Shown here: positions 4,402 to 26,974 of the stretch, piece after piece
Position numbering within the stretch: position 1 is the stretch's first letter
How the letters are laid out: each line of letters opens with the position of its first letter
Assembly: GCA_005877505.1 (NCBI GenBank)
Contig: VBOO01000019.1
Span: 1-33,115 of the forward strand
Direction of reading: 5' to 3'
Source of the DNA: Nitrospirota bacterium
Lineage (GTDB): Bacteria > Nitrospirota > Nitrospiria > Nitrospirales > NS-4
DNA length: 33,115 bases
Made by a program: the position numbers and the translations under genes
Notes under the pieces: generated by a model
Database searches by the model: none
Seen by the model: only the letters and a program-made list of their open reading frames with translations
What the model was told of the DNA's origin: nothing

Positions 4402-4470
4402 ACCCCTCACCCTAACCCTCTCCATGACCCATTGCATTCAGAAGAGCAATGGGTGCCCCGGGCGAGGGTA
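4402..4470. repeat. Nested palindromic repeat, copy B (ACCCATTGC/GCAATGGGT inside an ACCCTC/GAGGGT stem)
   Basis: ACCCATTGC (4427-4435) pairs with GCAATGGGT (4446-4454); flanking ACCCTC (4415-4420) pairs with GAGGGT (4464-4469). Confidence 0.8.
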
Positions 4471-12300: not shown

Positions 12301-12500
12301 GGCTCTGGAGAGCCCGAACGGAATGGGGGATTCGGTCTCAGAATGAGGGATGTGCGACACAGACGCTGGTGTACATGCAAGGGCTGAAGCCCCCTCCTGA
12401 CGACTCTTCCTCCCCGCCGGTTGCGTCCTGCCGGGCAAGCGGCTCGCTTCTCTAATCGCCTTTCCGTCCGCCTTTCACCGACTCGCTTCCAGTTCCGCTC

Positions 12501-12596
12501 CCCCGACCCGTTGCTGGTGACCCATTGCATCGACCCATTGCATCAGTAGAGCAATGGGTTCCCCGAGCAACGGGTGCCCCGAGCAAGGGGTGCCCC
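12501..12596. repeat. Nested palindromic repeat, copy C (three left and three right modules)
   Basis: Left arms ACCCGTTGC (12506), ACCCATTGC (12520), ACCCATTGC (12533); right arms GCAATGGGT (12551), GCAACGGGT (12567), GCAAGGGGT (12583), with (T/G)CCCCGA spacers. Confidence 0.85.
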
Positions 12597-12655
12597 GTAC
12601 GCGATGGCGCTGCCCTGCGGCGCGTGGTGATGTCGTCGCGCTGGCGTGAAGGGAG

Positions 12656-14214
12656 GTGAACCCCATTCCAGACCTGACCATTGTGATCCTGGCGGTGTTC
12701 GCCGGAGCGGCCCTCGGCGCCGGCCTGCTCCGGCTCATTCAAGGCAAAGTGGTGCCCTCGCGGCTTCGTGAGGCGGAGGATCGCGCGGCCCAGATCGTCC
12801 GGGCGGCCGAGAGAGAGGCCTCCACGCGTGCGCGCGAAGCGCAGCTCGAAGCCAAGGACCTGATCGTCCAGGCGAGGGCCGAGCTCGACAAGGAGTTACA
12901 GGCTCAGCGCAACGAGATCCTCGCGCTGGAAAAGCGGCTAGTCCAGAAAGAAGAGTCCCTGGACCGCCGGATGTCCAATTTCGACCGGCGCGAGTCCGAA
13001 CTCCAGAAACGAGAGAAGACGGTGACGTTCCGGGAGAAGGCGTTGGAGGAAAAAGAGACCGACCTGGCGCGCCTGGTCCAGGAACGCACCAAGGCGCTCG
13101 AATACGCCTCGGGCATGACGGCCGACGAGGCCAAGGCGGCGCTCCTACAGCAGGTGGAGAGCGAGGCCAAGTTCGAGGCCGCCAAGATGATCAAGCGGGT
13201 CCAGGACGAAACCAAGGAGGTTGCCGATCGGGAAGCGAAGGAGATCATCGCCCGGTCCATCCAGCGGATCACGCGGGACTACGTGGCGGAGGCGACGATC
13301 TCGGTGGTGCCGCTCCCGAGCGACGGCATGAAGGGTCGGATCATCGGCCGGGAGGGCCGGAACATCCGGGCGCTGGAAGCCGCGACGGGTATCGACCTGG
13401 TCGTGGACGAAACGCCCGAGGCGGTCCTGATCTCCTGCTTCGATCCGCTTCGCCGGGAAATTGCGAAGGTGTCGCTGGAGCGGCTGATGGCGGACGGCAG
13501 GATCCACCCGACCCGCATCGAAGAGGTGGTCGAGAAGGTCAAGAAAGACCTGGACAAGATGATGCTCGAGGAGGCGGAGAAGGTGCTCTTCGAGCTGGGG
13601 ATCACCAACATCCATCCGGAGATCGTGAAGCTCCTGGGTAAGCTCAAGTTCCGGACGAGCTACGGGCAGAACAACCTCTACCACGCGCGCGAGGCGGCCT
13701 ACATCTGCGGGATCATGGCCTCGGAATTGGAGCTGGATGTCAAGCTCTCACGGCGTGGGGCCCTGATGCATGACATGGGCAAGGCGCTGAGCCAGGAGGA
13801 GGAAGGCCCGCACGCCATCATCGGCGCGGACTTCGCCAAGAAATACGGGGAAACGCCATCGCTGCGCACCACGAGCAGGTCGAGCCGATCTGTCCCGAAA
13901 CGGTGCTGGTGGCGGCCGCAGAATCGCTCTCGGCGGCGCGGCCGGGGGCGCGGCGGGAGACCGTCGAGGCCTACATCAAGCGCCTCGAGAAGCTGGAGAA
14001 GCTGGCCGTAGACTACAAGGGAGTGGAGAAGGCTTATGCCATCCAGGCCGGGCGGGAGATCCGGGTGATCGTGAAGCAGGACACGATCACGGACGCGGAA
14101 TGCGCCGTCCTGTCCCGCGACCTGGCCCGCAAGATCGAGCAGGAGCTGACATATCCCGGCCAGATCAAGGTCACGGTTATCCGCGAAAGTCGTTTTACAG
14201 ACGTCGCGAAGTGA
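12656..14214 (+). pseudogene. rny: Ribonuclease Y, frame-broken near 13852-13855 in the HD domain
   Basis: ORF 12656..14011 carries the TM, coiled coil, KH (MKGRIIGREGRNIRALEAATGIDLVVDETPEAV) and the HD motif ([31 protein letters not shown]). The rest ([11 protein letters not shown]...[29 protein letters not shown]...[10 protein letters not shown]) lies in another frame from 13855 to 14214. Confidence 0.87.
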
Positions 14215-19916: not shown

Positions 19917-19996
19917 AATGGGGTCAGAGTCGATTTTTCAAGACAGTTTTGCAAGGCGTCAAAATGGTGAGGAGAAAAATCGACTCTGACCCCATT
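19917..19996. repeat. Perfect 23-bp inverted repeat with 34-nt loop
   Basis: AATGGGGTCAGAGTCGATTTTTC (19917-19939) and GAAAAATCGACTCTGACCCCATT (19974-19996). Confidence 0.95.
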
Positions 19997-25903: not shown

Positions 25904-26974
25904 TCACGATCTTTGCTTGCTTCTGATAGTCTTTGCCCGCGCCGCGAGTTGTTCCGCCTCGTCCGGGCGACGCATCGCCCGTAGCAATGCCGCATAGTTC
26001 TCCAGGGTATCAGCCACCGTGGGATGCTCTGGTCCCAGGCTCTTCTCCCGGATCGCCAGCGCGCGCGTGAAGAGGGATTGCGCTTCGCCGTATCTCCCCT
26101 CGTGGTTATAGAGGATCGCCAGGTTGTTCAGGCTCGTCGCCACGTCCGGGTGCTCAGGCCCTAGACGTGTCTCGCGGATCGCCAGGGCGCGCTGATGCAG
26201 AGGCTCCGCCGAGTGGTACCACCCCAGGACGAAATAGAGGTTTGCGAGGTTGTTCAGGCTGACAGCCACATCCGGATGCTCCGGCCCGAGGCGTTTCTCG
26301 CGGATTGCGAGTGTGCGCCTGTAGAGAGCTTCGGCCTCTGCATACCGCTTTTGGGTCTTGTAGAGCACCGCCACGTTGTTCAGGGTCTCGGCCACGTCCA
26401 GGTGCTCGAGGCCGAGGGCCTTTTCTTGGATGGCAAGCGCCCGCGCGTACAGGCGTTCCGCCAGGTCATACTTCCCCTGGCTTTTGTACAGGATGGCTAG
26501 GTTGTTCAGGGTGTCGGCCACCTCCGGATGGTCCAGGCCGTGAGTTTTTTCCTGGATGGCGAGCGCCTGCGTGTAGAGACGCGCCGCCGCCTCATACTGC
26601 CCATGGTTGTCATGCAGGGTCGCCCAGCTCTTCAGGGTCTCGGCGACGGCCGGATGCTCCCGCCCCAACAGGCGCTCTTGGACGGCGAGCGCCCGTCTGA
26701 AGAGGCGCTCCGACGCCTCGGGCTTCCCTTCTGCAAGGTAGAGTTCCGCCAGTGCGGCAATACTGTCGGCCACACGTGCGCCCGGGGCGCCGGCCGCCTC
26801 CTTGAGGGCGGCGACATAATGCTGTTCCGCTTCATCGAAGTGGTGTTCCTTCACGGCTCGCTTGCCGCTGTCCACGTGCCACTCCGAGAGCAACCCATTC
26901 TGCGCGCGCGCATCCAAGACCAAGAACAACAACACGCAGGCGCCCACGATGGCTGTCAGTCTTTTGTCTCTCAC
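25904..26974 (-). CDS. Tetratricopeptide repeat protein (kinesin light chain-like 42-residue repeats) with signal peptide
   Basis: Repeated LGPEHPDVAxSLNNLAxLYxxxGRYxEAExLxxRALAIREK units. Confidence 0.92.
   Translation of the reverse strand: MRDKRLTAIVGACVLLFLVLDARAQNGLLSEWHVDSGKRAVKEHHFDEAEQHYVAALKEAAGAPGARVADSIAALAELYLAEGKPEASERLFRRALAVQERLLGREHPAVAETLKSWATLHDNHGQYEAAARLYTQALAIQEKTHGLDHPEVADTLNNLAILYKSQGKYDLAERLYARALAIQEKALGLEHLDVAETLNNVAVLYKTQKRYAEAEALYRRTLAIREKRLGPEHPDVAVSLNNLANLYFVLGWYHSAEPLHQRALAIRETRLGPEHPDVATSLNNLAILYNHEGRYGEAQSLFTRALAIREKSLGPEHPTVADTLENYAALLRAMRRPDEAEQLAARAKTIRSKQRS

Follow-up and report, generated by a model that had tools for sequence, protein, structure and literature searches.

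Small palindromic sequences are common in bacterial genomes, and the origin and spread of the families that lack a transposase is an open question. The RPEs of Rickettsia are dispersed palindromes that occur in frame within genes, with different families found at orthologous sites (PMC2229807, PMC10969869, PMC3767692), and the motif ATGAC is common in RPE-4, RPE-6 and RPE-7 (PMC3767692). A GTAG or CGTC tag marks the REP sequences, of which the GTAG type is associated with RAYTs (PMC3733652), while some of the bacterial MITEs are fused in frame with genes (PMC10969869). In the organelles of Volvox carteri, short palindromic repeats are inserted into each other and the composites recur at several sites (PMC2670323); for the mitochondrial elements of Allomyces, no target duplications have been reported (PMC2800124).

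The short hairpin described here, from a soil Nitrospirota genome, shares with the RPEs and with the WPEs of Wolbachia a dispersed distribution of several palindrome families, both between genes and inside intact reading frames, and the presence of different families at orthologous sites (in this case, in a MidA-like gene); it differs from them in that it occurs in another phylum, in G+C-rich DNA, as a 28-nt tip unit that is common to many families and is found in stacks three deep. Like the REPs, REPINs and BIMEs, these are short, high-copy, mostly intergenic imperfect palindromes, but they carry no GTAG or CGTC tag, do not correlate with Y1 enzymes, and are nested instead of lying side by side. 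The organelle palindromes of Volvox and the hairpins of fungal and sponge mitochondria provide a precedent for a palindrome within a palindrome and for composites at several sites, whereas here the host molecule is a bacterial chromosome, and sister genomes reveal the donor family and the intermediate states. Bacterial MITEs (ERIC, RUP, Correia/NEMIS) are likewise small non-autonomous inverted-repeat elements, but for the present unit neither a target duplication nor, among the enzyme families searched, a cognate transposase was found. By analogy, the Nitrospirota unit appears to work like the nested organelle palindromes and the RPEs, a likeness in mode of working that does not imply common origin. 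A literature search, with thin coverage of subscription journals, returned no match for nested palindromes in bacteria, which leaves their absence unproven.

We interpret the unit, with a probability of roughly 0.55, as a small non-autonomous palindromic repeat that serves as an exchangeable tip in a REP/RPE-like mosaic and would spread by template switching from hairpin to hairpin. The sister genomes hold the intermediate steps, namely sites with no element, with a plain hairpin, with one to three stacked tips, and with tips that have been exchanged or inverted. The donor family is identifiable for one inner hairpin. Together, this makes the idea of tip copying directly testable. With the in-frame cases, coding palindromes like those of Rickettsia are now seen in Nitrospirota as well.

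A three-level nested hairpin upstream of rny

The window, that is, the whole stretch of DNA that was analysed (33,115 nucleotides), is contig C202 of the MAG G000 (soil Nitrospirota; 2.17 Mb, 316 contigs, 87% complete); the hairpins of this family and the rny frame are given on the forward strand. We confirm a nested palindrome at 12505-12598, upstream of the RNase Y gene rny, the reading frame of which (12656-14011) lies 3' of the element and served to locate the orthologous sites. The outer arms ACCCGTTGC (12506-12514) and GCAAGGGGT (12583-12591, followed by GCCCCGT) enclose the middle arms ACCCATTGC (12520-12528) and GCAACGGGT (12567-12575, followed by GCCCCGA), which in turn enclose the inner arms, again ACCCATTGC (12533-12541) and GCAATGGGT (12551-12559, followed by TCCCCGA). 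The innermost pair is free of mismatches, and the middle and outer pairs contain one mismatch each (A vs C and G vs G, respectively), in both cases at stem position 5. The outer ring is common to the two-level orthologues in the sister genomes G001 and G002, and the inner part corresponds to a two-level ATCG cassette.

Folded as single-stranded DNA, the 101 nt at 12500-12600 reach -26.2 kcal/mol, compared to a mean of -13.7 for dinucleotide shuffles (z = -5.4), with none of the 200 shuffles folding as well; two hairpins of this kind were observed in the window against a mean of 0.0 in first-order Markov simulations. Mis-assembly, by collapse or expansion, is an unlikely source of the three-level structure because, at 98 bp, it is shorter than a read, and the sister assemblies have the two-level form at the same site.

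The first-pass annotation, made from the window alone, had reported three left and three right arms with (T/G)CCCCGA spacers at 12501-12596, a two-level version at 148-204 and a one-level version at 4427-4454. All six arms lie where it had placed them, the spacers are present between the right arms, and both additional versions are borne out. The two-level copy is a nested tip of the TGGTG type (146-209), the inner hairpin of which carries GCAACTGGT, and it is held between the arms CGCCGCTCA and GACTTCGCGGC of a family D hairpin (137-220; see below for the families). The single unit, ACCCATTGC-ATTCAGAAGA-GCAATGGGT-GCCCC (4427-4459), is located in the loop of a family A palindrome, CCCCTCACCCTAACCCTCTCC ... 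GGGCGAGGGT (4403-4469).

The rny frame (12656-14214) departs from conserved RNase Y after approximately codon 401 (KYGE|...), beyond which the coding sequence carries on in another frame. The RNase Y homologue of G002 aligns up to the end of the query, residue 451, so the frame shift may be shared; a sequencing error is also possible.

Distribution and conservation of the unit

The unit has the form ACCCRTTGC-N9/10-GCAAYGGGT-NCCCC, with a 9-bp stem, a loop of 9-10 nt and a conserved 3' NCCCC. Many units start with ATGACCC, which recalls the ATGAC motif of the RPEs and may be a coincidence. The exact hairpin ACCCRTTGC-N3-20-GCAAYGGGT was found 59 times in the whole G000 genome, compared to none for a reversed control pattern, and a tandem-arm pattern yielded 15 matches, compared to none for its control. 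By its RNase Y homologues, the window falls among soil Nitrospirae MAGs, of which NS_8 (G001), NS_3 (G002) and NS_1 (G003) are the closest, with 91-93% protein identity. Covariance-model searches, in which 150 candidates were scored per genome so that the counts are lower bounds, detected at least 91 units in G000, at least 58 in G002, at least 16 in G001, at least 13 in G003 and at least 8 in each of G004, G005 and G006. In a phylum-wide sample of Nitrospirota, the unit was present in 16 of the 295 genomes, with a patchy distribution.

Among 122 copies, stem position 5 is a GC pair in 90, an AT pair in 30 and a mixed pair in 2, and stem position 1 is an AT pair in 113, a GC pair in 7 and a mixed pair in 2. 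Given that the search pattern permitted mixed pairs at both positions, these counts represent covariation, kept either by selection or by arm-templated copying. Compensatory changes in a conserved stem, together with the location of some copies close upstream of genes, such as rny, would be expected if a selected RNA or DNA function (an mRNA stabiliser, a terminator or a protein-binding hairpin) kept and multiplied the hairpins, with nesting strengthening the structure. We consider such a function improbable: the sites are empty in sister genomes and show no orthologous conservation, several copies lie within genes, no T-run indicative of an intrinsic terminator follows the hairpin in any of the 122 listed copies (the 3' flank is NCCCC or ACCCG), an Rfam scan of the searched loci for known structured RNAs retrieved two tRNAs only, and template switching by itself can keep arms matched (PMC8794818, PMC8604942).

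The unit as the tip of unrelated palindromes

Beyond the genome-wide pattern searches, sequence was analysed in the neighbourhood of the copies and at the orthologous loci. When the copies were sorted by their flanks (in the 122 copies, mostly ATG, GTG, TTG, TCG or CATC on the 5' side), the unit proved to be the tip of several unrelated families of palindromic repeats. Family A has the form CCCTCACCC...CCCTCTCC-ATG-unit-GCCCCGG-GAGAGGG, family B is GCGGGAGGGGGCCCATC-unit-ACCCGCGCCCCTCCCGCACCCAC, family C is GAGCTGGTG-unit (with GCAACAGGT)-GCCCCGGTAGCTCGGCGACAGGACCC, and family D is AACGCCGCTCA-unit-CGACCTCGCGGC; families E, F and G are smaller. An exact flanking stem of at least 6 bp is present in 56% of the non-nested copies and at 19% of positions drawn at random from these loci (Mann-Whitney p = 2.5e-25, which overstates the significance, as members of one family are not independent observations); families F and G have little or no outer stem and contribute little to this excess. 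Plain palindromes, about 26 of family A and 12 of family B, exist in one genome beside those that bear the unit. Elsewhere in Nitrospirota, the unit is also found within elements with the ends TTAGCCCGCATTATTCA and AGCAGGATGTT-AAAAA.

Several composite arrangements were observed in addition. In loci L235 (G258) and L238 (G296), the unit lies within elements of about 230 bp with the inverted ends TTAGCCCGCATTATTCA...TGAATAATGCGGGCTAA, which are possible MITEs. At L220 (G001:C37:2648-2755), one family B element follows another in direct tandem, at a distance of 72 bp. In L195 (G002:C111), a family A-like composite with the unit is embedded in an A+T-rich palindrome (CGTTAATCGTTAAACGTT...), so that three types of palindrome are nested, and the same A+T-rich palindrome occurs, with a different loop, in L029 (G000:C294).

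Empty, plain and stacked states at orthologous sites

Comparison of the same loci in sister genomes, which had been proposed along with the initial description of the window, yielded zero-, one-, two- and three-level states at orthologous sites. The site upstream of rny is empty in G003 (L055), contains a two-level element in G001 and G002 (L032 and L033), and a three-level element in the window. At the window site at position 148, G001 has a plain family D hairpin, CGCCGCTCA-GCCGAGACTTCGCG, and in the window the two-level tip separates CGCCGCTCA from the GACTTCGCG side; a plain family D form is also found in G004 at the C294 site. At the C119 site, a family B palindrome holds three levels in G000 and is plain in G003; the site is empty in G001, G002, G004 and G005. 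At C77/C219 (L010/L187), where two A palindromes are adjacent, the unit occupies the first loop in G002 and the second loop in G000, the other loop being plain in each case. At C35, G000 has two levels within a B palindrome, one copy in G002 is a B palindrome with a different tip (ACCCGCAAAGCGGGT), and half a B palindrome is all that is found in the other G002 copy and in G001. Finally, at C9 (L001/L210), G000 has two levels, and G002 has a single level whose tip points the other way. By-eye inspection of the compared empty and filled sister sites detected no obvious target-site duplication.

Taken at the level of sequence comparison, these states show that sites occupied by whole A, B and D palindromes are vacant in sister species, that the same palindromes occur with plain or unit-bearing tips, which are one, two or three hairpins deep, and that one inner cassette resides within different outer hairpins, with the orientation of the tip reversed at one site.

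Origin of the inner hairpins

A unit lies within the loop of another unit at approximately 17 sites. To trace the inner hairpins, we took every nested inner unit together with 4-5 nt of its flanks and calculated its edit distance to each of the non-nested units. In the two-level element at the rny site of G001, the inner unit differs by 1 edit (over 36 nt) from a family C tip at another locus of G001; this inner hairpin carries the 5' TGGTG flank of family C and its GCAACAGGT stem mismatch. The TGGTG cassette is found within outer hairpins of the A type (GCCC...GGGC), the B type and the D type, each with its own family flanks. For the three-level element of the window, the middle and inner part matches the C294 cassette in 59 of 63 bases (a manual count on the alignment), with the C165 cassette nearly as close; the same part aligns with the G001 and G002 orthologues in the arms only, with a score of 9, compared to 51 and 49 for the cassettes. 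Given this match to cassettes elsewhere and the arms-only alignment at the same site, the best account of the third level at 12501 is that a two-level cassette which already existed, and which is also present at C294 and C165, took the place of the inner hairpin, with the direction of the exchange inferred.

The first-pass annotation had proposed a palindrome that repeatedly inserts into, or duplicates within, its own loop. The nesting is indeed real and recurrent, the elements are mobile, and the arrangement is distinct from the side-by-side architecture of REP/BIME arrays, as had been proposed. The inner hairpins, however, do not derive from the outer hairpin around them but correspond, in the common two-level form, to a family C tip and, at the third level of the window, to a two-level cassette known from other loci. 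The genome-wide search for nested arrays uncovered further copies, including nested ones. Most units reside in the loops of unrelated palindromes and not in loops of their own kind.

Tandem slippage, in which the left-arm and right-arm segments would each be duplicated in place and so mimic nesting, could account for the ATCG-spacer type only: there, the arms resemble 13-mer and 16-mer repeats, with GACCCATTGCATC occurring twice on the left side and GCAAYGGGTKCCCCGA two or three times on the right side. Slippage would nevertheless require a simultaneous, matching duplication on both arms; the spacers of the TGGTG and AGTG types are missing from the outer hairpins, the inner arms are unlike the outer arms, and the orthologues show heterologous replacement. 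For the TGGTG type, slippage is largely refuted, and as a general explanation we give it little credence.

Insertions inside genes

Comparison of sister genomes revealed four in-frame insertions in protein-coding genes. A Methyltransf_28 (MidA-like) gene contains a two-level A element in G000, where G002 and G003 have 2 residues and G001 and G004 have differing short inserts. A MutS2-like gene carries a two-level A element, in frame, directly 5' of the ATPase domain; a proline dehydrogenase gene contains a two-level element in G000 and a flipped one-level element in G002, in frame in both; and a family B insertion is in frame in another gene, in G001. Stop codons occur in 2-17% of the units, depending on the frame, compared to 26% in random sequence of similar composition. 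In 32 of the 122 copies, some frame is open for at least 80 codons on both sides, a count that overstates the true coding cases in G+C-rich DNA.

At the MidA-like insertion point, the short remnants in G001 (L293, C253) and G004 (L295, C167) resemble halves of family B, and the G000 element belongs to family A, as if this point were a hotspot where palindromes come and go.

Transposition or template switching

A trans-acting transposase (HUH/Y1 or another enzyme) could recognise the unit hairpin and place it by preference in single-stranded hairpin loops, as in a REPIN- or MITE-like system, with nesting resulting from the choice of target. We regard this as a serious rival and as possible: the copy number is high and patchy, with all 23 scored candidates positive in some Nitrospirota genomes and none in most, the empty sites are clean, sites flanked by stems are strongly preferred, and known GTAG REPs are tied to such enzymes (PMC3733652). 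On the other hand, Y1_Tnp has one weak match in G000 and none in G002, G003 or G296, genomes with many units or close relatives of such genomes, and several Y1-bearing genomes contain no units, so that the presence of Y1 is not correlated with the number of units, which argues against a RAYT/Y1 enzyme as the driver. Furthermore, no GTAG or CGTC tag is present at the unit ends in the flanks of the 122 copies, target duplications were not seen, and no IS110 transposase (Transposase_20) or reverse transcriptase (RVT_1) match was found in G000; the rejection of a Y1 enzyme, of IS110-type hairpin targeting and of reverse transcription is provisional for a MAG that is 87% complete.

Two other candidates were considered. 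Ku is without a match in G000-G005, which argues, provisionally given the completeness of G000, against Ku-based end joining. With regard to phage carriage, a search of viral_contigs with one exact unit pattern gave no match.

Under the preferred reading, exchange of tips by template switching, a hairpin would form on single-stranded DNA at the replication fork, and synthesis would jump, via short homology in the arm or loop, to another hairpin, copy its tip and return through the complementary arm. Such copying would replace or fill the loop and would involve neither a target duplication nor a dedicated transposase. Because inverted arms would provide both entry and exit homology, matched arms and an inverted tip at one locus would be accounted for. 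Template switching is known to homogenise the arms of inverted repeats and to invert their spacers (PMC8604942), and the opposite orientation of the tips in L001 and L210 is as intermolecular template switching predicts (PMC8604942). Neutrality would let nested stacks last, either between genes or, if length and frame allow, within them. That template switching acts across dispersed loci with just 8-9 bp of homology is suggested by junctions read by eye.

Some observations weigh against this scheme. The 12501 insertion site is not an obvious palindrome, and families F and G have little or no outer stem, so not every copy resides in the tip of a hairpin. Moreover, copy numbers of 91 and 58, compared to 8-16 in close relatives, are as after an enzyme-driven burst, and some other transposase, or one encoded in the 13% that the MAG lacks, could yield the same pattern. 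The broader notion that hairpin tips are transposase-free mobile DNA, which spreads and stacks by replication template switching via its arms and remodels proteins from inside genes, is put forward tentatively and is, in our judgement, rather doubtful.

The window also contains other repeats. Another type of palindromic repeat is represented at 19917-19996 by a perfect inverted repeat of 23 nt, AATGGGGTCAGAGTCGATTTTTC, with 34 nt between its arms, and a 126-bp repeat in five to six tandem copies (25997-26714) probably encodes a protein repeat.
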